Notes under the pieces: model-generated
The model's input: only the letters and a program-made list of their open reading frames with translations
What the model was told of the DNA's origin: nothing
Database searches by the model: none
Shown here: positions 410 to 27,012 of the stretch, in pieces
Numbering within the stretch: the stretch's first letter is position 1
Layout of the letters: every line of letters starts with the position of its first letter
Position numbers and translations under genes: made by a program
From: a virus
Direction: 5' to 3' (one strand)
IMG/VR virus record: IMGVR_UViG_2199352024_000003
Span: 1 to 43,641 of that record
DNA: 43,641 nucleotides

Positions 410-2029
410 TTACCACCGGCCGAGGGTCGGATGCTGCTTGCCATGCTTCTTCTCTTTCTTGGCAAGGGACTGCCAGAATTTCTCGCTGCTGTTCGCCGGT
501 CCGGGCTTCTTTTCCCTGCGGGGCATCTTCTCAAAGATAGACAGATACTTCGCAGCGTAGGAGAGTGTGTCAACCTGATCGTCGTGCGCTCCGTGCGGGA
601 AGGCAAGCAGCTCATGCTCAAAATCTGCAAGGAATCCTGCCGTCCGGGGGAAGTAGATGCGGCCCGCCTGAAGGAGAGCAGAAGCCTGCATTGCACGGGT
701 CACCTTGTCGGTATCGGGGATGAGTTCTCGGATGGGAAGTCCCTTGCGCATAAGGCTCTGTATGAGGGTTATTCCGAAGGTCGCCTTCTCAATTCCGACA
801 AACCGGGGCTTGAACTTGGATTCGAGGGACTCTCGCACCATGCGCTCGTGCTCCGGCCCCTGTACCCGTACCTTCTTCACGTCGAGGAGCAGCAGCTCCT
901 TGTCGGGAGTTAGGGCAAAGGTAGAGAAGACCGTAAAGTCGGAGGTGGTCTTGGTCGTGGCAGCAAGGTCCGCTACCGTAAAGTTCCAACACTCCGCCTC
1001 CCGGACATACCGGGGAGTCGTGTGCTCGCCGTGGGGGAAGACCTGGTAGAACGTGATGCCGTCCTTGTCGGTCTCGGTAAAGTAGGCGAAATTCTCCTTA
1101 GAGAAGATGCCCCCTCCCTCAATCTGAGGCGTCTGCTGGTACAGGGCCGACCACCAGTAGTTCGTAAGGGTCTTGCGGATGTTGTGGAGAGCATCAATGT
1201 TGTAGCGCTCTGGCCACAGGGCCTCGCCTGGGAGTCGTCCTAGCACGTCCGGGTCTGGTCCGGTCGCAATCGCCGGGAGATTAATTAAGTACCACTCCTC
1301 AGGCTGCTGGAGAAGCTGGCGTCCGCCTAGGTCATCCTCATTCCACCGGGTGTAGAGCAGCACAACACAGCCCCCCGGTTCAAGGCGGGTAAAGGCGGTA
1401 GACATAAACCACTCGTCTGCCGAGTCTCGCTTAACCTGGGACGCCGCATCATCAGCGTTCTTTACCGGGTCGTCAATAATAAGTAAATCGGCGGGCTTAC
1501 CGGAGATTGGGCCTCCGACACCTGCGGTCATCATACCCCCGCCTGTGCTGGTCTCCCAGCGGTGCGCCGCCTTCGTGTCCGTGCGGAGAGAGACAAAGGA
1601 AGCTCCGACAGGGGAGGTGAGCAGGTCCCGGACCTTGCGGCCCCAGGACGCAGCAAAGTCGGCCTCGTAGGAACAGAGAATGACTCGGTTATTCGGATTT
1701 TTTGCAATGAACCAGGCCGGGGTGTACTTGGAGATAAGTTCCGACTTCCCGTGCCGGGGAGGCATCGTGACCATGAGCCGCTTATATGGCGTGCCGTCCG
1801 GTTTCAGAAGTTCCCCTTCGGTTAACTTCCGTAACGTCTCGGAAATCAGGTCAATGTGGGGAGGACGTTGAAACCCGCCCCCCTTCGGAGTAGTGGGGGA
1901 CATAAGGGTGGCGAAGTCGGCGGGGGAGTATAGGGAGACTTCTCTCTGAAGGAGGTTGTGATACTGCCGCCTCTCGGCGGGAGTCATCAGTTCTATTAGC
2001 TCATCAGGTATTTCTTCTAGATGGGGCAA
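410..2029 (-). CDS. terminase large subunit
   Basis: A 539-residue packaging motor and nuclease. The ATPase half has a Walker A motif MPPRHGKSE (89-97) and Walker B LLIIDD (182-187). The nuclease half has the expected acidic residues: D354 in the TVADLA strand, E414 in VGIEKA and the HDDQVD motif at 482-487. Length is typical for the family. The start is TTG at 2029, where the protein reads MPHLEEIPDEL. No clear Shine-Dalgarno precedes it, so initiation at the internal ATG (residue 15) cannot be excluded. It is the first large gene of the leftward virion module. The likely small subunit is encoded on the other strand at 7130. Confidence 0.96.
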   Translation of the reverse strand: MPHLEEIPDELIELMTPAERRQYHNLLQREVSLYSPADFATLMSPTTPKGGGFQRPPHIDLISETLRKLTEGELLKPDGTPYKRLMVTMPPRHGKSELISKYTPAWFIAKNPNNRVILCSYEADFAASWGRKVRDLLTSPVGASFVSLRTDTKAAHRWETSTGGGMMTAGVGGPISGKPADLLIIDDPVKNADDAASQVKRDSADEWFMSTAFTRLEPGGCVVLLYTRWNEDDLGGRQLLQQPEEWYLINLPAIATGPDPDVLGRLPGEALWPERYNIDALHNIRKTLTNYWWSALYQQTPQIEGGGIFSKENFAYFTETDKDGITFYQVFPHGEHTTPRYVREAECWNFTVADLAATTKTTSDFTVFSTFALTPDKELLLLDVKKVRVQGPEHERMVRESLESKFKPRFVGIEKATFGITLIQSLMRKGLPIRELIPDTDKVTRAMQASALLQAGRIYFPRTAGFLADFEHELLAFPHGAHDDQVDTLSYAAKYLSIFEKMPRREKKPGPANSSEKFWQSLAKKEKKHGKQHPTLGRW

Positions 2030-8152: not shown

Positions 8153-9385
8153 ATGTCTGACCTATCCACAGACCGACGATCTACCGCAGCCCCTACGGGA
8201 TATGCCACCCACGATATGTACTTTGCCTCCCACTTTTATCAAGGAGGCCGCCGTAACTTCTTCCTTGATCTGTCTATCCCGCAGCTCCTCGCCACGATCA
8301 ACCAACCCGACCCCCTCGTGCTCATTGAGGGCAACCGCCAGATTACGCTCTCGCACGCCCAGGGCTTTGCGGACTACATTCTTTCTCGACCGGACTGGGT
8401 TTGCCCCATGATCCTACTCCGAGCCCCCACAGGGGAGTTTGAGTTTCGCAGTACCACCCGAGCCGACGAGTCCGGGGCAGGCACCGACTTCGGCATCCTC
8501 TCCGTCCCGAAGTACGCCCGAACACAAATTAACATTATTGACGGGCAGCACCGCATCCTCGGATTCCACCTTGCTTGGACGCAGCTAGAGGATCAAATTC
8601 AGAAGGCCAGAGCACACCTTGCCCGAGCTAAGAAGGACCAGCCCGACGTTCATGTTCTAATAAAATCCGCAGAGAAGCACCTAGACATGCTCCTAAAGCG
8701 CCGACAGACCCTTACCGAGCAGCGAGTCGGCCTCCAGATTGTCATCACGGACGACCCTAAGGAATACAAACAGATATTTGTTGACATTGCGGATAACGCC
8801 AAGGGTATTCCGAAGGCTGTCTCCGTAGGGTTTGACAGTCACAAGGTTGTTTACCGGGCTTTTGCCGCTGTAGCCGAACACCCACTTCTTAAGGACAGGG
8901 TTAACAAGAACTCAGACAGGGCGATAAAGAACAGCCCCTACCTACTCGGAGCGGCGCACGTTGCCAACATTATCCGCTGCATTGAAGTAGGGTCGGGACG
9001 CATAAGCCGAGTGCAGGAATTAGAGTTAAAGGATGCAGATGTTGTTAAGAATTCGCTCGAATTCTTTAACGTTATTACCGCAGCATTTCCTAACCTTAAA
9101 AAGGTAGAGCAGGGCATTCTTTCTCCCGAAGAATTGCGCCAGCAAAACCTCCTCGGATCCGTCACAATGCTGCGAGTTCTTGCCCGAGTATTTCACGATT
9201 TGCGGGAGGAAGGTCTCGGCCTCTCCGATATCCTCGCCCACTTCGAAGGCCTTGCTCCGCTCATGCCTCTGCCCCTACAAGACTTCTGGCTTACCACCGG
9301 AGTCTTCCAACCCGGAGGCACAGCACCCGGATCCGCAGCCGGAGATGTCAACCGCCTCACTGACGCAATAAAGGCCAAGATTTGA
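8153..9385 (+). CDS. DGQHR-domain (DndB-like) protein
   Basis: A 410-residue protein with the signature IDGQHR at 129-134, the hallmark of the DndB family and related DGQHR proteins. DndB is known as the repressor of the phosphorothioate DNA-modification operon, and stand-alone homologues occur in phages and islands with unclear roles. A long helical middle (150-190) and a basic stretch follow. AAGGAGCACCCCA precedes the ATG. The stop codon overlaps the left attP direct repeat. No dnd modification genes are present, so interference with a host Dnd or Ssp-type system is only a hypothesis. Confidence 0.75.
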   Translation: MSDLSTDRRSTAAPTGYATHDMYFASHFYQGGRRNFFLDLSIPQLLATINQPDPLVLIEGNRQITLSHAQGFADYILSRPDWVCPMILLRAPTGEFEFRSTTRADESGAGTDFGILSVPKYARTQINIIDGQHRILGFHLAWTQLEDQIQKARAHLARAKKDQPDVHVLIKSAEKHLDMLLKRRQTLTEQRVGLQIVITDDPKEYKQIFVDIADNAKGIPKAVSVGFDSHKVVYRAFAAVAEHPLLKDRVNKNSDRAIKNSPYLLGAAHVANIIRCIEVGSGRISRVQELELKDADVVKNSLEFFNVITAAFPNLKKVEQGILSPEELRQQNLLGSVTMLRVLARVFHDLREEGLGLSDILAHFEGLAPLMPLPLQDFWLTTGVFQPGGTAPGSAAGDVNRLTDAIKAKI

Positions 9386-12982: not shown

Positions 12983-13146
12983 TTAAGGACACGAAGTGGT
13001 TAGAAGATCGCATAGAAGAACTACAGAAAGAAATATCCCTACTACGAAAAGAGATAATCCGTGAAAAAGACCTTCGGCCTTCTGATACTCATCCTCCTAC
13101 CTTTAAGTGTGGCTCTGCCTGTCGCTGCGAGTCCCGGCAAGGATAA
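12979..13146 (+). CDS. possible small coiled-coil protein
   Basis: A 55-residue frame whose GTG overlaps the kinase stop. The first 33 residues form a strong coiled coil (WLEDRIEELQKEISLLRKEI). The rest overlaps the signal-peptide region of the next gene in another frame by 86 nt, so only the first part may be under selection. Confidence 0.4.
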   Translation: MIKDTKWLEDRIEELQKEISLLRKEIIREKDLRPSDTHPPTFKCGSACRCESRQG

Positions 13147-13672
13147 CAACGTCAGGCTCTGCCACGCCACGTCCAGTGAGACAAACCCGTACGTCACGAT
13201 CACTGTAGACCCGGCCTCCGTTGTCTTTGAAGGTCATGATGGCCATGATGATGACATTATTCCTCCGTTCGAGGGCTATCCAGGCAAGAACTACATGGGC
13301 GACAACATTTTAATTTATCTCAACGACTGTGAGGTACCACAATCCACTACAACTACCACTACGGAAGTATCTCCTACGACGACTGTTGTTTTATCACCGA
13401 GTACGACTACAACAGTAACGATCCCGGAAGCGACGACGACCACAACCAGCACGATCGTGCCGGTTACGACGATTCCGACGACAATCCCGGCTGAAACGAC
13501 CACAACCAGCACGATCGTGCCTTTTTTAGTCGGTCCCGAATCAACAACGACTGTTCCGGTTGTTTCGGGTGAACAAGAATTGCCTCGTACCGGACTGCCG
13601 ATCCTCCTGCACGTTGCTGTAGGTCTTGGGCTGTTGCTTCTCGGAACTCTTGCTAAGAGGTGGGCACATTAA
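13061..13672 (+). CDS. LPXTG-anchored, Thr-rich secreted surface protein
   Basis: 203 residues: a signal peptide (KK, hydrophobic 5-20, ending PVAAS), a domain VRLCHATSSETNPYVTITVD found in secreted actinobacterial proteins, a Thr/Pro/Val-rich stalk of about 75 residues and a complete sortase signal: LPRTG, a hydrophobic segment and a KRWAH tail. Sortase would link it to the host cell wall. Surface anchoring of a phage protein suggests lysogenic conversion or exclusion of other phages. The gene lies between the dNMP kinase and DNA polymerase. GTG start after AAAAGAG. Confidence 0.88.
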   Translation: MKKTFGLLILILLPLSVALPVAASPGKDNNVRLCHATSSETNPYVTITVDPASVVFEGHDGHDDDIIPPFEGYPGKNYMGDNILIYLNDCEVPQSTTTTTTEVSPTTTVVLSPSTTTTVTIPEATTTTTSTIVPVTTIPTTIPAETTTTSTIVPFLVGPESTTTVPVVSGEQELPRTGLPILLHVAVGLGLLLLGTLAKRWAH

Positions 13673-23043: not shown

Positions 23044-23781
23044 ATGGCATACTCTGTAATATCACGAGCCGGATGGGGCGCAAAACCCCCTACTCACACT
23101 CCAGAGACAATGCCTGTTCCTCAAGCCCATGTCTGGATACACCACTCCGTTACGGATGCTTCCTCGTCCGCAACCGGCGATATGCGCACTCTCCAGAACA
23201 TTGCCTTCGGGCGTGGATTTGCGGACGTTTCTTATTCTTTTGCCGTTCACCCCTCCGGCGCAGTTCTGGAAGGCCGAGGCTGGGGCATTGTCGGCGCACA
23301 CACTCTTAATTACAACTCAACATCTCATGGGATCGTATTTATTGGTGATTTTACTAAAGTCTCCCCGACAAGAGAAGCGCTCGATGCCTGTCGGTGGCTG
23401 ATTGCTGAAGGAGTGCGGCTAGGCAAAATCTCCAGCCCTCAGCACATCGGCGGGCATCGTGACGTTTACGCTACAGCTTGTCCGGGACCTAACTTGTATG
23501 ACCAGATAAATTATATTCGCACCCCCCTTACTTCAGGAGTTAAACCAATGTATTCCCCTGCCCTCGTTCTTGAGCCTATCGTGGCCTCTCTCAAAGCTCC
23601 GGGTGGTGGAGAGTGGCTCCTTGCTGCCTCTGGGGCAGTCTACGCATTCGACGCCCCTTACGCTGGCGGTGCCTCCGGGCAACAGTACTTTGCAGGGCGC
23701 AAGGCAGCTCGACTGGAGATTGGCCCGCCCGGAAAGACTTACACAATCGTAAGTGAATCTGGGGAGAGGTATGACTACTAG
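23044..23781 (+). CDS. N-acetylmuramoyl-L-alanine amidase endolysin
   Basis: 245 residues. An amidase_2/PGRP domain (1-160) with zinc ligands His33/34 (WIHHSVT), His138 (GGHRD) and Cys146 (TACPG). The C-terminal part (GGGEWLLAASGAVYAFDAP) resembles a wall-binding repeat of secreted actinobacterial proteins. It cuts the stem peptide from peptidoglycan for lysis. First gene of the lysis module, one base after the primase stop. Confidence 0.93.
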   Translation: MAYSVISRAGWGAKPPTHTPETMPVPQAHVWIHHSVTDASSSATGDMRTLQNIAFGRGFADVSYSFAVHPSGAVLEGRGWGIVGAHTLNYNSTSHGIVFIGDFTKVSPTREALDACRWLIAEGVRLGKISSPQHIGGHRDVYATACPGPNLYDQINYIRTPLTSGVKPMYSPALVLEPIVASLKAPGGGEWLLAASGAVYAFDAPYAGGASGQQYFAGRKAARLEIGPPGKTYTIVSESGERYDY

Positions 23782-24191: not shown

Positions 24192-24787
24192 TGGGAATAC
24201 AAGAGATTTTGCTGGCTCTGAATGAGTCGAATCAACAGCAGATCGAGCAAGCAGATGCTTTACGCTATGACGTAAGGCTGCTCGACTGGAAGTGGCGGAG
24301 GGGGAAGATCCTATTCTTCGGCGGAGCAGCTGTGCTCTTTACGTTGCTGCTGATTATGGCATATTTGCTATTTTCCCTCGTTGGGCTCGCTCATCAACAG
24401 GACAAGAGCGCTAAACGGCAGGACCACATACTCGCCCAAGTAACCGCACTTGCTGAAGAGAATCGGGCGATAAATCAGGTGAATAGGGACAGCCTCGCTA
24501 TCCTTCAGGACGCCACCTCTCCTGATGGAGTTCGTTACAAGGCCGGTTTAGAGAATCAGAAAGCGGCTATTGCACAGATAGACGCTCAGAACCAAGCTCG
24601 TCAGCAGCAGCTTATGGACGCACTTAACTCAATTCAAGCACAGCTTACAGGGATCAAACGAGCTATCCCAACCACGACAACCACGGCGGTGCGGAGCACG
24701 ACAGCGCCTCAGGTCGGCCCCCCGCCCACAACCATCCCCGTCTCTACTGCTACGACGATCACAGTCAAGGGTAAGGGGAAGAAGTGA
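24191..24787 (+). CDS. membrane-anchored coiled-coil protein with Thr/Pro tail
   Basis: 198 residues: a short cytoplasmic part, a membrane span (about 38-60, ILFFGGAAVLFTLLLIMAYLL), a long coiled coil (70-155) and a Thr/Pro-rich tail with a Lys-rich end. The tail composition resembles the stalk of the LPXTG protein and could cross the cell wall, as for a spanin-like or wall-contact role in lysis. TAATG coupling at the start. Confidence 0.6.
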   Translation: MGIQEILLALNESNQQQIEQADALRYDVRLLDWKWRRGKILFFGGAAVLFTLLLIMAYLLFSLVGLAHQQDKSAKRQDHILAQVTALAEENRAINQVNRDSLAILQDATSPDGVRYKAGLENQKAAIAQIDAQNQARQQQLMDALNSIQAQLTGIKRAIPTTTTTAVRSTTAPQVGPPPTTIPVSTATTITVKGKGKK

Positions 24788-25770
24788 AGTCAGCGGAGGA
24801 CCAGCTCCGGGCAACACTCATCAAGTTAGACAAGGAAAAAGACAAGACAGATGCTCTAGTCGAAGCGGTATTCGAAGCGGTGGATCTTAACTTAAAATCA
24901 ATCCGGCCGCCGAAGGTGCTTAAGCCTCGCAAGGATCGCAGGGCTCGCCCTGCAGAGGTGGCCGTAGCTGTCCTCTCAGATTTTCAACTTGGGAAGACAA
25001 CTTCCACATACAACTCAGCGGTCTGTGAAAAGCGGATTGAGCTTTATGCCGATGTGGTTAAGGATCTAACAAAGATTCAGCGCAGTGTCAACCCTGTTAG
25101 AGACTGCCATGTCTGGATCTTGGGTGACATTGTTGAGGGGGAGATGATCTTCCCCGGACAAGCACATCTCATAGATAGCAGTCTATATCGGCAAGTAGCG
25201 GTGGATGGTCCCCGCATCTTAGGGAATTTCCTGAGGAGAATGTTAGAGGAGTTTGACAATGTTCACGTTACGGCCGTACCAGGAAACCACGGGTCTCTTG
25301 GGGGAAGGGCACGTAAGGACTACCACCCGGAATCTAACGCCGATCGCATCCTATATCGTATGGTCGAGCAAATACTCGCCCACGAAAGTCGTCTTACATG
25401 GGATATTGTCGAAGGCGCTGAGGATTCTTGGTATCGAGTCGTCGATATTGGTGGATATAAAACGCTCCTCTTCCACGGAGACCAAGTGGGGAATCCAAAC
25501 TCGAATATCGCTTCCATTAGCAAGAGAATCACTGGCTGGAAGTCAGGTGCCCTAAACGAGCATTTCGACGACGCCTTCTTCGGGCACTATCACACCGTAA
25601 CAAAGATCACGGTAAACAAGACAACTGTCCGCATTTCCGGGAGCCCTGAGTCAGACAACGGCTTTGCCCGCAGCACCCTTGCCTCGGTGGCCCGTCCCTC
25701 TCAGCAGCTCATGTTTGCTCGCCCCGGCTTCGGGGTCACATCTGAGAGCACGGTCTGGCTGGATAGATGA
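24784..25770 (+). CDS. calcineurin-like metallophosphoesterase
   Basis: 328 residues. Metal-binding motifs: SDFQLG (D66), GDIVEGE (114-120), PGNHG (166-170), FHGDQ and GHYH. The first motif has Gln where many relatives have His. The protein starts with a charged helix. GTG overlaps the previous stop. It is a phosphodiesterase or phosphatase of unknown substrate inside the lysis/late module. Confidence 0.85.
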   Translation: MKSAEDQLRATLIKLDKEKDKTDALVEAVFEAVDLNLKSIRPPKVLKPRKDRRARPAEVAVAVLSDFQLGKTTSTYNSAVCEKRIELYADVVKDLTKIQRSVNPVRDCHVWILGDIVEGEMIFPGQAHLIDSSLYRQVAVDGPRILGNFLRRMLEEFDNVHVTAVPGNHGSLGGRARKDYHPESNADRILYRMVEQILAHESRLTWDIVEGAEDSWYRVVDIGGYKTLLFHGDQVGNPNSNIASISKRITGWKSGALNEHFDDAFFGHYHTVTKITVNKTTVRISGSPESDNGFARSTLASVARPSQQLMFARPGFGVTSESTVWLDR

Positions 25771-26182: not shown

Positions 26183-26371
26183 ATGGTCACTGACAAATTT
26201 CTTGCTAAATTCCTAAGCCGTAAGTTGCTACTCTCCGTGGCTGCATTCCTCGCCCTTACCTTTAAGGGTAATGCAGTAGCAGCCGGAGCCGTAGCAGCCA
26301 TATATGTCCTCGTGGAGGGCTATGTCGACTCAAGGACGCAGGCTAGTGGCGGAACAGACCCGCAAGCGTAA
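26183..26371 (+). CDS. holin-like two-span membrane protein
   Basis: 62 residues: a basic N-terminus (MVTDKFLAKFLSRK), two hydrophobic segments (15-27 and 32-47) with a short turn (KGNA), and a short hydrophilic tail. Size and layout fit a class II holin, and the amidase is in the same operon. The last 26 nt overlap the Pup gene. Confidence 0.65.
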   Translation: MVTDKFLAKFLSRKLLLSVAAFLALTFKGNAVAAGAVAAIYVLVEGYVDSRTQASGGTDPQA

Positions 26372-26552
26372 GCCCGCTCAGGCCAAAAAGGCCGAGAAGG
26401 TTGATGAGACTGTCCAAGTTCCTGAGGCTGCTCAGACTGAGCGAGAGAAACGTCTAGCAGATATAGACGAAATTCTCGATGGAATAGATGAGATCCTGGA
26501 AGAAGAAGCTGAAGAGTTTGTAAAGAACTTTTTGCAAAAAGGAGGTCAGTAG
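26346..26552 (+). CDS. pup: prokaryotic ubiquitin-like protein Pup (phage-encoded)
   Basis: A 68-residue protein from GTG at 26346. The N-terminus MAEQTRKRKP resembles MAQEQTKRG of mycobacterial Pup, and the C-terminus EEAEEFVKNFLQKGGQ aligns without gaps with ENAEDFVRAYVQKGGQ. Residues 37-62 form the amphipathic helix that binds the Mpa/ARC coiled coil. The end is GGQ, which needs deamidation by Dop before PafA can attach it to lysine. The N-terminal half is Lys/Arg-rich, unlike the acidic, Gly-rich one of many host Pups. No pafA, dop or mpa is present. A longer frame from 26304 exists. Its last codons (aaa gga ggt cag) double as the ribosome site of the next gene. Confidence 0.93.
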   Translation: MAEQTRKRKPAQAKKAEKVDETVQVPEAAQTEREKRLADIDEILDGIDEILEEEAEEFVKNFLQKGGQ

Positions 26553-26556
26553 GGGG

Positions 26557-27012
26557 GTGAAACAGACATTCTTTAAGACGCAGAGCACTAGACCGTCTAA
26601 GTTCTTCTACAAAGTTCATGATGTGAACCATAAACACCCGTATTTGAGAAAAACCTGTCTCACTTGCGGTGTAAGCAAGATGATGCAAAAGCGAGCGACA
26701 GCTCAATTTTGCTCAATTGCATGCGGGAAAATTGGAAGGCTCAATCCTAATTTTAATGCAGACCCTAATAGTCCTTACAAAACAAAATCAAGGTCTGAGA
26801 TGGTTCGATACCACGAATTAGTTTATTTACATCGAGGAGCACCCGAACATTGTGTACACTGTGGCACTACCGAAAATCGCATGTACCACTGGGCTAACGT
26901 TTCTGGGAACTACGCAAACGTTAACGACTTTATTCGTCTTTGCGTCCCGTGCCACTCTGCTTTCGACAGAACAAAACGCCCTACCTCTGTTGAATTGTCT
27001 TCAATCCGGTAA
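26557..27012 (+). CDS. HNH endonuclease
   Basis: A 151-residue protein. N-terminal zinc finger (CLTCGV...FCSIACG) and a C-terminal HNH core (CVHCGTTENRMYHWANVSGN...LCVPCHSAFD), where Trp-Ala-Asn replaces the usual His-x-Asn spacing seen in phage HNH proteins. GGAGGTCAG precedes the GTG. It is the last rightward gene. Its final 32 nt overlap the 3' end of the convergent virion gene. Confidence 0.85.
   Translation: MKQTFFKTQSTRPSKFFYKVHDVNHKHPYLRKTCLTCGVSKMMQKRATAQFCSIACGKIGRLNPNFNADPNSPYKTKSRSEMVRYHELVYLHRGAPEHCVHCGTTENRMYHWANVSGNYANVNDFIRLCVPCHSAFDRTKRPTSVELSSIR

Follow-up and report, generated by a model that had tools for sequence, protein, structure and literature searches.

A viral DNA of 43,641 nucleotides (hereafter, the window; IMG/VR record IMGVR_UViG_2199352024_000003) was found to encode a genuine prokaryotic ubiquitin-like protein (Pup), and from its sequence we lean toward the view that this Pup is conjugation-competent and exploits the pupylation–proteasome system of the host. 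The protein scored 63.3 bits against the Pfam profile PF05639 (cut-off, 27; E=4e-17) and 51.9 bits against the NCBIfam equivalog TIGR03687 (cut-off, 41.45), and a phmmer search matched it to the Pup chains of the PDB and M. tuberculosis Pup (E=7e-9). A phage-encoded Pup had been proposed for this DNA in an earlier note, and its identity is upheld since both profile cut-offs were exceeded. The reading frame given there was recovered with 68 codons from a GTG and the C-terminus FVKNFLQKGGQ, and the ungapped C-terminal alignment to M. tuberculosis Pup covers the last 28 residues, of which 17 are identical (10 within the last 16). The MAEQT start likewise stands, as it resembles the starts of other Pups and is preceded by a Shine-Dalgarno-like sequence (Table 1); at the alternative in-frame ATGs (26322 and 26304), a ribosome site is poor or absent. 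AlphaFold2, run with 37 phage Pups, predicted a single helix of residues 27–64 (mean pLDDT 72 for the model); the N-terminus before it is disordered, having no secondary structure at a pLDDT of about 65. This helix covers the amphipathic segment 37–62 of the earlier note, whose hydrophobic moment exceeded that of 99.6% of shuffles. Scores above the profile cut-offs, a terminal GGQ, and a disordered N-terminus joined to a C-terminal helix, by which a Pup is recognized, were hence all found in this protein. It resembles actinobacterial Pup (PF05639, TIGR03687) in length, the disordered N-terminus, the central and C-terminal helix, the conserved L..F V....Q.GG-Q/E end, and the GGQ form requiring deamidation, but differs in being phage-encoded and orphaned from the mpa-dop-pup-prcBA-pafA locus.

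Table 1. Positions of the pup gene, its parts, and other located features of the window.
Feature	Position	Strand	Basis
Terminase large subunit	410..2029	-	phrog_38, E=2e-93
Amidase endolysin, 5' of pup	23044..23781	+	phrog_1493, E=1e-29
SbcD-like metallophosphoesterase/exonuclease	24784..25770	+	phrog_284, E=3e-44
Small membrane protein, 62 aa (holin-like)	26183..26371	+	ORF; overlaps pup start by 26 nt
Shine-Dalgarno-like AAGGA	26332..26336	+	Sequence reading; 9 nt 5' of pup GTG
pup (phage Pup, 68 aa, GTG start)	26346..26552	+	PF05639, TIGR03687, PDB Pup matches
Predicted helix, pup codons 27-64	26424..26537	+	AlphaFold2; corresponds to Mpa- and PafA/Dop-binding regions of known Pups (PMC8755798, PMC8599861)
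Gly-Gly-Gln-stop of pup	26541..26552	+	Sequence; end predicted for Dop deamidation and PafA ligation
HNH endonuclease, immediately 3' of pup	26557..27012	+	phrog_1271, E=1e-4
Large gene convergent with pup, 1254 aa	26981..30745	-	31% over 666 aa in L035; same arrangement there

The window carries terminase (phrog_38), portal (phrog_156), and major capsid (phrog_14242) genes, which identify it as a tailed phage (Caudoviricetes), and further profile matches were obtained for DNA polymerase, helicase, primase, and an amidase endolysin. Cultured relatives of its capsid (28–34% identity) infect Arthrobacter, Microbacterium, and Cellulosimicrobium, and two more capsid relatives are uncultured spring phages. 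This capsid kinship points to an actinobacterium as the most likely host; the Pup–proteasome system is at home in these bacteria. Pup was absent from the five capsid relatives tested, and since the closest cultured ones lack it, the protein is dispensable in the wider group. A distant syntenic relative from IMG/VR (G034) has core proteins 36–43% identical to their window counterparts (38% for terminase and primase, 42% for portal and polymerase, 43% for capsid) and retains the same order of amidase, phosphoesterase, small membrane ORF, and pup, plus the convergent gene. The presence of pup at its place in so distant a relative indicates that it has long been inherited in this phage line. The earlier note had located pup at the end of a lysis operon behind a holin-like gene. 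This is loosely right, as an amidase lies 2.6 kb upstream and a membrane ORF overlaps pup, but the holin lacks profile support, that ORF having matched no family, holin included, in profile searches; a similar hydrophobic ORF occurs 5' of pup in the syntenic relative L035. The SbcD-like nuclease is common to Streptomyces phage Dagobah and other Pup phages, with 36–47% matches in L049, L036, L077, and L111.

Three other genes of the window were observed in passing. About 295 residues (roughly 783–1078) of the 1254-aa product of the convergent gene are missing from the L035 homologue; this segment starts with Cys, ends with GN before Thr, and seems to be an intein. The product of 13061-13672 (+) has a signal peptide, a Thr-rich stalk, and an LPRTG-hydrophobic-basic end, resembling a sortase-anchored surface protein. 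The gene at 8153-9385 (+) encodes a DGQHR-domain protein related to DndB that exceeded the TIGR03187 cut-off.

Pup proved to be recurrent among viruses. When IMG/VR was scanned with a DNA pattern describing the Pup C-terminus, 41 contigs matched, all 41 of which hold Pup in frame; adding a profile-derived scan and a C-terminus-blind pattern brought the total to 66 IMG/VR Pup records besides the window. Together with the window and Dagobah, these make 68 viral records, every one of which exceeded the PF05639 cut-off; when grouped by their C-terminal 48 residues, they form 45 clusters at 90% identity and 15 at 75%. The terminase large subunit (TerL) was found in 38 of 67 records by using profiles for three terminase families. 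This count leaves out G157 and G158 (40/67 before their removal), as the ORF called there corresponds to the UvsW helicase of G156. Of these 38 records, 19 have TerL on the pup strand and no more than 1.6 kb downstream of pup, with each of the three TerL families represented; in the window, L035, and Dagobah, pup is located instead on the lysis side. Dagobah (MT711977) is a cultured phage of S. coelicolor, and its gene HUN42_00036, annotated 'ubiquitin-like protein Pup', is positioned directly 3' of the endolysin; its genome paper does not mention the Pup gene (PMC7650747). The Dagobah and window Pups are alike in being orphans beside an endolysin in phages that both possess the SbcD-like nuclease, but the Dagobah protein has 78 aa and ends in QVGGE, whereas that of the window has 68 aa and ends in GGQ. 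A tblastn search of cultured phages with the window Pup gave no match, which is worthless as a negative because the low-complexity filter masks the query: in a control with 41 known Pups it recovered its own sequence only. The L020 Pup recovered 41/41 when used as the query, and Dagobah was found with it. The Gordonia phage matches of this query (E=9) were due to chance, and the profile detected no Pup in Gordonia phage Gravy. When genomes were scanned for host Pups, a single odd contig emerged: that of MAG nzgw507 (L043/L044), a genome of about 0.8 Mb which we take to belong to the small-genome phylum Patescibacteria. It encodes a Pup-like protein with a normal helix region lacking the FV...GGQ end; no Pup ligase or proteasome match was found in this genome.

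None of these viruses was found to bring the enzymes that attach or remove the tag. PF03136, which covers PafA and Dop, matched none of the 68 viral Pup records, window and Dagobah included; PF00227 (20S subunits) matched none of the first 41 IMG/VR Pup records, and the window record has no Pup ligase, depupylase, or Mpa/ARC (TIGR03689). As many records are fragments, such an absence is weak in any single one, though not in all 68. The PF03136 test itself works, since it matched MT835496 twice, at the two genes flanking pup. That entry (MT835496.1 40446-44998, L050), labeled 'Bacteriophage sp.', was set aside as bacterial DNA with dop, pup, pafA, and a frameshifted mpa. When the whole of IMG/VR was scanned independently for PafA/Dop-like sequences, not one was confirmed; the scan relied on two short motifs taken from two sequences, which divergent enzymes could escape. 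What phages contribute would thus be the tag, the unfoldase, or both; neither a phage ligase nor a phage depupylase came to light, and a protease core was absent from the records tested for it.

The part of Pup that is joined to other proteins is well preserved. An exact GGQ or GGE C-terminus was found in 44 of 45 complete viral Pups from the C-terminus-blind scan, and the residue preceding GG varies (K, R, Q, A, S, V). Because the end is kept and this neighbor drifts, selection is acting on the ligatable end of phage Pups. The Q and E forms occur inside one phage family (L028, L029). The sole exception (L124/L091; IMGVR 3300025725_000006) ends in QQSGQ and possibly represents a non-ligatable variant. 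Besides the start, the residues invariant in 37 phage Pups are L51, F58, V59, Q64, G66, and G67, and they fall within the last 27 residues, a stretch known to fold on PafA and Dop (PMC8599861). Invariance in this stretch and the missing viral enzymes together point to a tag provided by the phage and enzymes borrowed from the host. Use of its own tag with host enzymes, which the earlier note had ascribed to this phage, is hence strongly favored: almost every viral Pup retains a ligatable C-terminus, and viral PafA/Dop was not found. In two phage families where dS is computable, dN/dS over pup was about 0.06–0.19, some dS values being saturated. For the pair Dagobah/L033, the ratio was about 0.34 overall, rising to about 1 within the last 35 codons, where sites are few.

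Phages also encode the proteasomal ATPase. A TIGR03689 search of the Pup-bearing records yielded one strong match, in the IMG/VR contig G156, which is T4-like (gp22-like scaffold, gp23 capsid with E=2e-139, UvsY, UvsW) and has pup between uvsY and uvsW. Its ATPase of 533 aa aligned with M. tuberculosis Mpa to the last residue (E=4e-135), spanning the N-terminal coiled coil, both OB domains, and the AAA domain, and ends in GQYL, the motif that docks Mpa to the 20S core (PMC8755798). In all, full-length Mpa/ARC was found in six viral contigs from separate assemblies, the Pup-bearing T4-like contig among them, representing at least two unrelated phage types: L136:17823-19424 (IMGVR_UViG_3300034418_008582), L144, L145, L146, L147, and L148. 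As in Mpa/ARC of the TIGR03689 family, these six homologues keep the coiled coil, OB domains, and AAA motifs, and the Walker A and B motifs, K-W-V-G pore loop, and GQYL are present in 6/6; they differ in being phage-encoded, and were found in phages other than that of the window. In L146 and L147, the ATPase gene lies close upstream of a terminase gene, one gene away from it, and no Pup was seen in the examined parts of L144–L148. Among cultured phages, nothing was comparable to phage Mpa over its full length, the sole close match being the mislabeled MT835496. The 'proteasome-associated ATPase' of a Brevundimonas phage matches in the AAA region only, and for the 'bacterial proteasome homolog' of Citromicrobium phage RXM, Pup is not mentioned; both were discarded. 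The existence of phage Mpas speaks for degradation being what at least some phages seek.

In known systems, Dop deamidates Pup-GGQ and PafA joins the terminal glutamate to lysines (PMC8223512, PMC6466877, PMC8755798), and Mpa binds the Pup helix and threads the Pup N-terminus (PMC8755798). The window phage may produce Pup-GGQ from its lysis-side operon, probably late, as the gene position suggests. Host Dop would deamidate its terminal Gln to GGE, and host PafA would ligate the product to lysines of host and/or phage proteins, consistent with the binding residues and GG-Q/E end conserved in phage Pups. The conjugates would then bind Mpa through the helix, and the disordered N-terminus would be threaded for entry into the host 20S core. 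A surplus of phage Pup might raise the flux through the host system, by which host or defense proteins would be cleared and amino acids recycled; some other phages additionally bring their own Mpa/ARC. Such productive use is favored over a decoy role, and stable modification and useless carriage come behind. Several points were counted against it: some actinobacteria pupylate without a proteasome, Pup is missing from the closest cultured capsid relatives, the last 35 codons of the Dagobah/L033 pair exhibit no purifying excess, and a competitor saturating PafA, Dop, or Mpa could show equal conservation.

The latter corresponds to the foremost alternative, a rather unlikely one in our estimation, in which excess phage Pup occupies Dop, PafA, or Mpa and thereby keeps the host from pupylating and degrading phage proteins. 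Lysine-desert proteins are enriched in mycobacteriophages, which the authors of that study read as pupylation avoidance (PMC10665810), so pupylation may harm phages; moreover, Dop binds Pup more tightly than PafA does, the ATP hydrolysis of Dop is driven by the C-terminal residue of Pup (PMC8599861), and an orphan tag without its own enzymes suits a competitor. A decoy for Mpa alone, however, has no need of the GG-Q/E end, yet this is kept in nearly all viral Pups, and an active-looking Mpa with a 20S-docking end in other phages suits use rather than blockade. Given phage Mpa/ARC with intact GQYL, redirection of proteolysis thus seems preferable to blockade.

It is improbable that some phage Pups act as non-degradative modifiers, whose basic N-terminus would thread poorly into Mpa and leave stable conjugates that alter protein activity or localization. 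The N-terminus is indeed the threader in known Pups (PMC8755798), and the earlier note had called that of the window Pup unusually basic. Its net charge of +4 over 20 residues was ascertained, but N-termini as basic as this (+4 to +6) recur in roughly one in three of 30 distinct phage Pups, so that the trait is not special to the window Pup; such marked basicity is a difference of these phage Pups from actinobacterial Pup. In other phage Pups the N-terminus is acidic or neutral, and the host Pup comparison set is too small for basicity to be called a viral trait. The suggestion that this N-terminus stabilizes conjugates gained no support in the present analysis.

Still less probable is that pup is a passenger useless to the phage, spread by an adjacent HNH homing endonuclease or by chance. 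HNH genes lie 3' of pup in four lineages; that of L089/L090 is directly 3' and 59% identical to the window HNH, weaker ones occur in L005 and L063, and such a neighbor could have helped pup to spread. On plasmid NZ_CP109229 of Streptomyces anthocyanicus (L128:3851-4069), an IS transposase and a tyrosine recombinase (integrase) are encoded in the vicinity of an orphan Pup, and Pup is therefore present on other mobile elements too. Against useless carriage are the purifying selection on pup, its retained C-terminal end, its persistence in the distant syntenic relative, and the 15 Pup clusters at 75% identity. Finally, bacterial or prophage-flanking DNA wrongly classed as viral is a very remote explanation, and for the window it is refuted by its phage genes and syntenic relative: database contamination is real, as the bacterial mpa-dop-pup-pafA DNA filed as phage in MT835496 attests, but terminase, portal, and capsid genes are present in the window and its relatives, pup lies close to a terminase gene in 19 records and between uvsY and uvsW in the T4-like contig, PafA/Dop is absent from all 68 records, and the cultured Dagobah has Pup.

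No description of a phage Pup or phage Mpa was found in a targeted search of the open-licence full-text literature, and phages go unmentioned in the papers that founded or reviewed the field of pupylation. As far as we have seen, the Pup gene family is known, and its viral, orphan, and recurrent use, together with the viral ATPase, is undescribed. The recurrence of viral Pup, accompanied in a few cases by the ATPase, suggests that phages steer the protein-disposal machinery of the host. A wider reading, to which we give somewhat less than even credence, is that phages of proteasome-bearing actinobacteria conduct a virus-directed pupylation-proteolysis, in which their own Pup and, in some, their own Mpa/ARC (GQYL) would be combined with borrowed Dop, PafA, and 20S to destroy chosen host proteins. 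The capture of ubiquitin and ubiquitin ligases is a classic theme among eukaryotic viruses, and phage Pup would be its bacterial counterpart if the productive reading is true. Bacterial ubiquitin-like conjugation against phages, in which the host tags phage parts, is similar as protein tagging at the phage–host interface, but here the tag is supplied by the phage and belongs to an unrelated family. With the cultured pair Dagobah and S. coelicolor, the role of the bacterial proteasome in phage infection becomes directly testable. The lysine deserts of mycobacteriophages (PMC10665810) may also be viewed in a second way, as phages may both evade and exploit pupylation. Phage Pups and Mpas further constitute natural variants for the study of tag recognition and targeted degradation.
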